Part shown: positions 19,189 to 22,100 of the stretch, piece after piece
Layout of the letters: each line of letters opens with the position of its first letter
How positions within the stretch are numbered: position 1 is the stretch's first letter
Source: Zymoseptoria tritici IPO323
Taxonomy: Eukaryota > Ascomycota > Dothideomycetes > Mycosphaerellales > Mycosphaerellaceae
DNA length: 64,000 nt
Assembly (NCBI RefSeq): GCF_000219625.1
Contig: NC_018215.1
Coordinates: forward strand, 248,001-312,000
Direction of reading: 5' to 3'
Made by a program: the position numbers and the translations under genes
Notes under the pieces: model-generated
Database searches by the model: none
Told to the model about the DNA's origin: nothing
What the model saw: only the letters and a program-made list of their open reading frames with translations

Positions 19189-22100
19189 ATTCGATAAGGA
19201 GCTAGCGGTCTACTACCTAGTCGAGGTTAATCGCTTTAATCTACTCGATAGTAAAGTTAAGAACTACTCCGCTAATCTTTAAGTTTCTCGCGACTCGGCA
19301 AAGCGTAACGACTAGTATCGCCGTACGTTAAGTATAAACCTTTAAATCGAGGATGCCCCGAGTATAGTCGTACATCCGTACTTTATAATTAATAAAGTAC
19401 GCTCTAACGACTTTAATAAGCACATAAGCGCACTTATTAACTCCTCGAAGAAAGTAGAGCAAACAATTAACGCTCTTACTCGTACTATAATTACTAACAT
19501 TAGTAAAACCCGTACTACCCGTACGACCGAAATTACCGTTAGCGATATTAAGCTAGTAGTTTAGAATGTTAAGAACGATCCGGACACTACTATGCGCGTA
19601 ATTACGCGCTCGGAATTAGAAGAATTAGAAAAGGCTATTAATAACCGTAGTAATAAGATAAAGGCGAACCTACTCTTCTACTCTTAATACCGTATTAATA
19701 TATAAGGCGCGCTTATTAGATTCTACCCTACTACCGCCCTTACTATCGACTACCCTAAGAGCCCGGTTAATAGCCCTAAGCCTACTCGCACTTTATTACC
19801 TAACCGCGGCCGTACGCGCTCTAGCGCTAAATTTACGAATAAGTTCGATGCTAGCGCGGTACGATAAGTTAAGGAAGACGAGCTCTTAGCCGAGGCCCTT
19901 TAAGATATCGATAACTAAGAAGTACGTCCTCTTAGTAAGGATGCGGCGAGTGCTCGGCCGAGTATACGGCTACGCGTAGGTGCCCGTACTACTACTACTA
20001 TACTTATAGCTACGCGCGGCGATAATACTAAGGAAGATAATACGGATAATGCTAGTAACGACGACTTTAAGGATAAGCTAGGTCGTCGTAACCGCGGTAT
20101 TAAGACTACGGCTATAAAGGCTAGAATTAAGGATAACTATATATACTTCCGCCCGAATACATCCGTAACTACTAACCTTTCGGATAGCACTGTTCGGAAA
20201 GCCGCCTTAAAGGCGGTTATCGAGAAAATTAAGAAGCTTACTTACCTTAAGGATAAGGCTATAATTACCGTAGCTGCTCGTACTAAAGTTAATGCGGTTA
20301 TAGCTCTTACTACTACCTACCTAAGCGACGGTTACTACATCTACTTCGTACATTAGCATTAGCTTCTTAGAAAGGCTAGATATTACGTTAACGCACTTAG
20401 CTACGACACCGCTATATAGCGCATTATCGACTACGCGAACAACGCCGGTAATCGCATTACGGCTTTCTTATTAACTAATAAAGCCTACGCTAATGTTAAG
20501 AAGTTTACTTAGTCCCCTTATCCCCGCGACTCCTACCTTATATACTATAAGATCCCTAACAAATTAGTGTTCGAGGTTTATATAATAAACGACGATTTCT
20601 CTATAGCCGCTAAAGCTATGCTGCCCGGAGTCTACGATTAGTTCTAGCTAGACGGCACGATCGCTATTAACATCTTCGGCTAGTAGAAGAACTTCGACCT
20701 TCTATATATCTTTAAGAGCGAGTTTAAGATATATTACTATTATTTCCTTATACCTCCCGGTACTAACGACATTAGCTAGTTACGTAACTACTTCTACTCG
20801 CTAATGTAGTATAGCATGCGCTAAGACCTAATGTACTACGCATTATACTACCTTCGACGACTAGATAAGGTAATAAACCTCTACTTATACCCGTACTACG
20901 CTAAGCTTACGCTTCCGGGGGCGTTTACTACTTTTAAGTATATAGATTATAACCCTATCGACATGCTCGAGGGTAATAAGTTAATAGTAATAATAATTTA
21001 AGGTTCGGTTTCCCTTACCGATAAAGATAAGGAGAACTATACCCTAATTATCCCTAGTATGCACCTATACTAGAAGAAGTAGTATACTAACATAGAGGAG
21101 CGTACGTAGGTACTTATCGACTCTAAAGTTACTAAGGGTATAGATAAGGAGGCTACTACGAAGGATGCTCGCTTTAAGCTTAGTCTACGTAATACAATAG
21201 TTCTAATAATTACCGATAAGATAATTACTATAGAGGATCTTCGGGAATTTAAGACTAACTAGCACCTTTAGCTAGTTAAGGCAGGTATTGCTCGCATCTC
21301 TTATCTACTACTTCCGTATAGATCTACCGGACTAGCGACTAAGCTACGCATAACTACTCTACTATAGTTTGTCGCCGGTAAGCCCGGTAGTACTATCGAG
21401 AATGCCTTAGCTAGTACCGTTGCCGAGCTTACCTACTCCTACTCCGTACGCATGCCTAGCTTTAAGACTCCGTCTAGTAAGCCTAATAACTACGGCACAC
21501 CGACTACGCCCTTCCCTACCTTAGTAGTTATCTGTACGTAGAGTGCTCTGTCTAACGCTATCCTCGGTGCTACTACCTACCTTGATGCCGGTATTAAGGC
21601 TAACTAAGATGCCCTCTTCTCTAAGTCTAAATTCTACCGTAAGGAGTACGTTACTAAGACTCGCGCTATATTAGTCGCTCGCGTCTTCCTTACTATAGCC
21701 GACTACGTCCGTCCGTAAGAGTAAGAAGCCTTTAGATTTAATAATAGCTACTTCGGCGGTAGTAAGTACGAGAAGGTAAGCGCGAGCGATGCGGAGCGTA
21801 CCGAGCATATAGCCGTACTAGCTAAGAACAAGAGCAAGCTATAAGTTAAGGAAATAGCCTAGGAAATTAACGACCGCAATAATAGTAAGGGTTTAAAGGT
21901 AACTATTAATACTAAGGGTAATATAGTCGAGGAGAGTAAGGCTCGTAACCCCTCGGCTAAGACTAACACTAAGGATCTGCCTATTTTTAGCACCTCCGGT
22001 CGCGTTGCCGACGGATACGTACCGACTATAGAGTAGGTTTACTAGTAATACCTATAGTTCGGTAGTAAGAAAGAGGACTAGCTCGCTAAGAACTAGCTTA

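Follow-up and report, generated by a model that had tools for sequence, protein, structure and literature searches.

A 64,000-nucleotide stretch of the Zymoseptoria tritici IPO323 genome (contig NC_018215.1, positions 248,001 to 312,000 of the forward strand; hereafter the window) carries a decayed open reading frame (ORF), ORF3, whose C-terminal part resembles 2-oxoglutarate (2OG)/Fe(II) dioxygenases. The host of ORF3 is a Ty3/gypsy-like long terminal repeat (LTR) element, designated family 1, in which a putative gag and pol precede ORF3 (Table 1). The family-1 copies that have both LTRs at the simple distance (C14 and C21) are about 12.7 kb long. The window copy shows C-to-T decay of the type left by repeat-induced point mutation (RIP) and is split by a nested chromovirus; the left end of the window cuts through the element, which resumes at 11543 past the insertion. 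A preliminary description of this DNA had announced a third long ORF after pol in a gypsy element. This arrangement was confirmed, but the ORF is interrupted by the chromovirus. The element does have a pol of its own on the same strand before ORF3; the chromovirus pol just left of ORF3 belongs to another element.

In the plus frame read from window position 20000, TTFKYID is followed by a stop codon and GSVSLTD, then by LPYRSTG. The motif pattern described previously, with its spacing of 126 residues and an Arg at +10, is therefore present in the plus frame of the decayed ORF. The frame from 19184 to 22152 contains 40 stops in 989 codons, a probable true stop included (25 TAG, 15 TAA and 0 TGA), which is the lowest number among the six frames (68 and 148 in the other plus frames; 67, 163 and 47 in the minus frames). 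The absence of TGA is not diagnostic because four other frames also have none. When 14 other family-1 copies were compared as 10-kb loci, the 19184–22150 interval was spanned by one alignment in 11 of them; L024 and L030 are 5'-truncated, L028 is interrupted, and the L020 alignment runs on into the LTR. At 19184 the window copy breaks, but 12 of the 14 copies continue upstream with the same sequence. The continuation in sister copies and the LTRs led us to reject two other descriptions, namely ORF3 as an element in its own right, antisense to the adjacent gypsy, and its host as a non-LTR element with 5' truncation. All ORF3 copies examined in this genome are decayed. The family-1 protein has about 1,060 residues and comprises a long N-terminal region, a zinc-like CxC...CYxH motif, which is readable in copies of a second family, conserved in free homologues and decayed in family 1, and the C-terminal dioxygenase-like domain. 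The 5'-truncated copy L030 (G000:C8; about 3522, minus strand) adjoins telomere-like CCCTAA repeats some 65 kb from the contig end.

The state of the predicted ligands was read in 18 family-1 rows (the window and L002–L018; L016 and L017 share part of a C12 region, and no codon read distinguishes L012 from L013). Of 17 readable rows, 4 have CAT or CAC (His) at the first ligand codon and 13 have TAT; the Asp of HxD is found in 17/17. At the distal site, CAT is present in 2 rows and TAT in 16 of 18, and the Arg at +10 in all 18. In family 2, TTFKHID was read in the five copies examined, with the distal His and the Arg at +10 each retained in four. Since His occurs in sister copies at both sites, Tyr is the mutated state, which agrees with the proposed C-to-T decay of CAT/CAC; less mutated homologues had been proposed as a check, and they carry His rather than lack it. 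In the third-family copy of the window, HxD has decayed to YIN and the distal His to Tyr.

Table 1. Features of the window that bear on ORF3 and its relatives (window positions unless stated otherwise).
Feature	Position	Strand	Remark
5' LTR of family-1 element	C4:243220		4.8 kb left of the window, outside it
Family-1 Ty3/gypsy-like element, left part	1..11543	+	aligned from 5178 rightwards; 1-5177 inferred from position
Protease-like open stretch	6220..6609	+	matches a protease-like frame that copy L023 of this element contains
Family-1 pol (reverse transcriptase-RNaseH-integrase)	7974..10028	+	47% identical to family-2 pol
ORF3, first part (about 74 codons)	11323..11543	+	start inferred: ATG now ATA, from MADSTL in copy L032
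Nested chromovirus splitting ORF3	11544..19183	-	reverse transcriptase, RNaseH, H2C2 and Tf2-1 SH3 domains
ORF3, main part, decayed	19184..22150	+	
Dioxygenase-like region of ORF3 (search query)	20531..21760	+	
HxD site (TAT..GAT)	20939..20947	+	Tyr codon 20939-20941, Asp codon 20945-20947
Distal His (TAT) and Arg at +10	21317-21319 and 21347-21349	+	126 residues after the first Tyr
Polypurine tract	22191..22202	+	
3' LTR	22203..22457	+	length about 254 bp; identity with the 5' LTR 93%
Family-2 ORF3 fragment	23133..24443 (C4:271133-272443)	-	
Third-family element	35082-42544	-	
Third-family ORF3	35203..37575	-	
Third-family pol	40544..42544	-	

A search with the decayed ORF3 matched 2 proteins, and the cleaner of the two matched 37, itself included. 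A profile search matched at least 119, some seen before, among the best 8,000 candidates, which were those scored. A profile built from 74 long proteins (690–960 aa) covers ORF3 over nearly its length. With stops masked, it matched the second-family copy L036 at E 5.8e-156, family-1 copy L032 at 8e-109, the window ORF3 at 2.3e-72 and, over the C-terminal half only, the third-family ORF3 of the window at 2e-69. This homology to a profile of natural proteins lifts ORF3 above chance. The bare ligand pattern is worthless alone because its loose form, [HY]xD..[HY]..R, occurs 178 times in the six frames of the window; the stricter pattern of the preliminary description occurs once. Named sources of the homologues include Penicillium nucicola, Aspergillus granulosus, Coleophoma, Onygenales, Chaetothyriales, Xylona, Phaeosphaeriaceae, Paraphoma and several lichen fungi, which belong to the Ascomycota and, in part, the Pleosporales; where named, the proteins are mostly labelled hypothetical. 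Of 146 homologues, fragments included, 139 have FxHxD and 115 have a distal HG...R pattern. The alignment of 50 long homologues shows no variation at the distal His, and conservation is at least 90% for His and Asp of HxD, for the Arg, and for Cys and His in the CxC and CYxH motifs. Together with the family-1 Asp and Arg counts, these data bear out the claim of 2OG/Fe(II)-dioxygenase-type ligands, and the assignment to this superfamily is probably right. A 494-aa predicted protein of Zymoseptoria brevis (P0001) contains the ORF3 C-terminal part (67% over 172 aa) fused to other sequence. In a scan of viral contigs, 43 stretches fitted a pattern and none was confirmed as a relative.

PhyH (PF05721) was the only 2OG-oxygenase Pfam family matched, and its cut-off was reached by relatives of ORF3 only. 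Among ten homologues scanned, four (P0005, P0006, P0008 and P0011) scored above the cut-off, four below it and two gave nothing; P0002 reached 18.9 bits for a cut-off of 22. At E ≤ 0.01, PhyH was found in 15 of the 50 long homologues, next to two single weak matches to unrelated families, and it was precomputed for 8 of the 37 homologue proteins. In close homologues above the cut-off, HxD and the distal His...Arg fall inside the Pfam-matched stretches, an overlap in position rather than a residue alignment. In an hhalign comparison with 22 PhyH proteins, a DDxxxxxCxxxxPGxH stretch aligned in register, as did the distal His; the control scores were at most 24.1 among 20 column shuffles and 13.2 for the N-terminal control. 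The result is compatible with kinship to PhyH but does not establish it. No TET/JBP model and no AlkB-type 2OG-FeII_Oxy model of Pfam matched the window ORF3, the pieces from the other families or the scanned homologues. Kinship with TET/JBP or AlkB, the superfamily members named in the preliminary description, is unsupported because PhyH gave the only 2OG-oxygenase match.

Transversions were counted by codon position; they record older divergence because RIP makes only transitions. Between the ORF3 of families 2 and 3, they number 53/35/72 at positions 1/2/3 (p 0.0016), or 54/35/74 with a second copy (p 0.0009). The dioxygenase part alone gives 20/13/33 (p 0.009; second copy p 0.019), and the family-1 ORF3 of L032 compared with that of the window gives 3/3/17 (p 0.0002). 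The pol counts are 6/5/46. These data show that ORF3 carries a signature of selection that predates its decay.

ORF3 is also not confined to one element family. A protein search of the genome returned 62 ORF3 matches, 37 of them only 27–43% identical. Another gypsy family (family 2) is seen in four regions and in a stretch of L032, and the third family is represented in the window itself. The window also holds a family-2 pol fragment (27206–28120, minus strand). Families 1 and 2 are 46% identical in pol (over 708 aa) and 26–30% in ORF3, and families 2 and 3 are 73% and 63–66% identical respectively. Pol and ORF3 thus diverge together across the three families, ORF3 faster than pol. Of 46 merged family-2/3 places, 40 have a same-strand pol at most 10 kb upstream, and in 31 the gap is 1.7–2.0 kb. 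The merged family-1 places number 20, and 11 of them have such a pol. The 46 places, some of them fragments, come from a search whose query was in the wrong frame, with TGA stops inside the query's own match, and the pol list is incomplete, with 64 of 276 candidates scored. These counts show that ORF3 is linked to pol in three families.

The reverse transcriptase-RNaseH-integrase order of Ty3/gypsy elements (Metaviridae) is present both in family 1, in copy L023, and in the second family, in L035. L023 has RNaseH, RT_RNaseH_2 and Integrase_H2C2 above the Pfam cut-offs and RVT_1 below it (22.3 bits, cut-off 29.6); L035 has all four pol models above. The protease-like stretch is without a Pfam match, its identity having been read by eye. 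No Pfam gag model matched in the C4 copy; the C14 copy has a single CCHC-like gag-knuckle remnant, CLNYRMPSYIARNY, if Y is allowed for C/H. The C14 copy is bordered on both sides by a 4-bp target duplication, GTAG (read by eye), and the window copy is without a matching one (flanks gggg and gtaa). The nested chromovirus is flanked by a 5-bp target duplication, ATACT, and its chromodomain scores 21.2 bits, under the cut-off of 25.1. Chromoviruses, the chromodomain-bearing Ty3/gypsy elements, are likewise LTR retroelements with the same pol domain order; however, the pol of the nested one is only 22–23% identical to that of the ORF3 elements.

A 148-bp tandem array of 4.6 copies (22459–23131) starts at the end of the 3' LTR. 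In L023, G runs occur in the spacer between pol and ORF3, at an estimated position, taken from the frame listing, of about 5200–5400. The window also has two open stretches that are nearly identical and little decayed (12716–13345, plus strand, and 34542–35093, minus strand); judged by eye, they may represent a non-LTR element's 3' end, and the first matches L024, L026 and L028 at 94–98%.

On balance, ORF3 is probably a conserved gene of a Ty3/gypsy-like lineage, with a predicted C-terminal 2OG/Fe(II) dioxygenase nearest to PhyH and, by analogy, a possible role against silencing. Several observations weigh against this reading. The element ORF3 differs from known PhyH proteins in being retroelement-borne and unmatched by the model: the window ORF3, a family-2 copy and a third-family piece all gave no Pfam match, and a PhyH search of the genome itself gave five hits, none at an ORF3 place. 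A sequence search of the PDB yielded no useful match. The hhalign comparison with the 22 PhyH proteins misses HxD and the Arg and reaches a score of 31.1 with a probability of 14.5%, and in a profile-profile comparison with four host PhyH proteins the probability was 3.6%. In family-2 copy L032, Tyr replaces the distal His and Cys the +10 Arg. With 64 of 276 pol candidates scored, no pol was found within 10 kb at 9 of 20 family-1 and 6 of 46 family-2/3 places. The codon-position bias is not significant in the pairs L032–L023 (16/15/27, p 0.1), window–L023 (p 0.15) and L036–L035 (p 0.31), nor in the N-terminal (p 0.33 and 0.13) or C-terminal (p 0.14) parts of ORF3 taken alone, so that the constraint on ORF3 looks real but weaker than that on pol.

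The history of the gene can be read in two ways. A tree was built from 110 sequences, namely four element rows and proteins of at least 430 aa. Family 1 joins P0124 in it with a support of 100, and families 2/3 group separately with proteins of Paraphoma and Phaeosphaeriaceae (support 89; the next node has 96 and the nearest sister, P0136, only 66). This topology suggests that ORF3 either was carried by the elements before these clades split or was captured twice. Independent capture of a widespread host gene, once by family 1 and once by families 2/3, is a serious possibility that we nonetheless hold to be somewhat doubtful: the pol similarity of families 1 and 2 and their identical gene order speak against it, and the outside homologues could be host genes or element genes.

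If ORF3 does encode an active oxygenase, the His-x-Asp...His triad would bind Fe(II) and the Arg would hold 2OG, and the putative enzyme would oxidise a substrate through turnover of O2 and 2OG. By analogy with other systems, a silencing-related target (nucleic acid, a chromatin protein or an RNA-binding protein) might be hydroxylated or demethylated, and element transcripts or fresh copies might thereby escape repression. Such anti-silencing oxidation is, by this analogy, our tentative first choice among the uses of the ORF3 product, and its main rival is a metabolic substrate. Most PhyH enzymes that have been characterised use small molecules as substrates, and PhyH is the sole 2OG family matched. 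ORF3 could therefore be captured cargo, a PhyH-type oxygenase with full catalytic competence whose substrate is a small molecule or metabolite and which helps the host or the particle instead of opposing silencing. We regard this as rather unlikely, given that ORF3 was kept in three diverged families with a near-constant spacing to pol in families 2/3, and that its length far exceeds that of the four intact PhyH frames in the genome (295–333 aa), adding a several-hundred-residue N-terminal region of its own with the CxC...CYxH motif. A dioxygenase fold kept for a non-enzymatic role, for instance a structural or nucleic-acid-binding one, could be argued from the seven homologues without FxHxD (some of them fragments) and from the faster divergence of ORF3; it appears improbable, as the ligands are among the best conserved columns of the long homologues. 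A chance reading of RIP-degraded DNA, as the frequency of the loose motif might suggest, is refuted by the stop-masked profile matches (E 2e-72 to 6e-156) and by His in sister copies and family 2.

A predicted oxygenase ORF falls outside the standard retroelement gene set, and we found no report of ORF3 among the titles and abstract openings listed by searches of the open-access literature; the term 'dioxygenase' is absent from the main texts of PMC4522978 and PMC3248453. The closest counterparts are Ty3/gypsy elements of Phalaenopsis that, according to PMC9289625, encode an AlkB-like 2OG-dependent dioxygenase. Like the present elements, they have an additional ORF besides the polyprotein with the dioxygenase at its C-terminus. 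As described there, however, the orchid domain is AlkB/ALKBH5-like with N6-methyladenosine demethylase activity in vitro, and the elements, 25 kb long and nested in the Tat family, come from one plant genus, whereas ORF3 is PhyH-like, fungal, present in three diverged families and of predicted activity. Fungal mobile elements with a 2OG dioxygenase are also described in PMC12730594; these are DNA transposons with enzymes of the TET/JBP family, for which a role against methylation-based silencing has been argued. Orchids already provide a case of a 2OG dioxygenase ORF in a retroelement; what differs here is the fungal host, the PhyH-like domain, the persistence across three families and the CxC...CYxH N-terminal part. 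Testing a 5-methylcytosine target would not be simple in this host because, according to PMC8016269, Z. tritici strains appeared to lack this mark through RIP inactivation of dim2.

A bolder extension, which we put forward as speculative and on present data unlikely, is that of an ascomycete-wide Ty3/gypsy lineage with a nuclear 2OG dioxygenase as its standard third gene, erasing or rewriting a silencing or RIP-related mark; the many 'hypothetical' fungal relatives of about 850 aa would then be element copies or domesticated descendants. If ORF3 is active, an oxygenase would be encoded by fungal retrotransposons themselves, in a genome whose repeats are heavily C-to-T mutated. It would offer a direct handle on retroelement answers to genome defence, and a large family of proteins mostly labelled hypothetical would be marked as likely 2OG oxygenases with a retroelement link.
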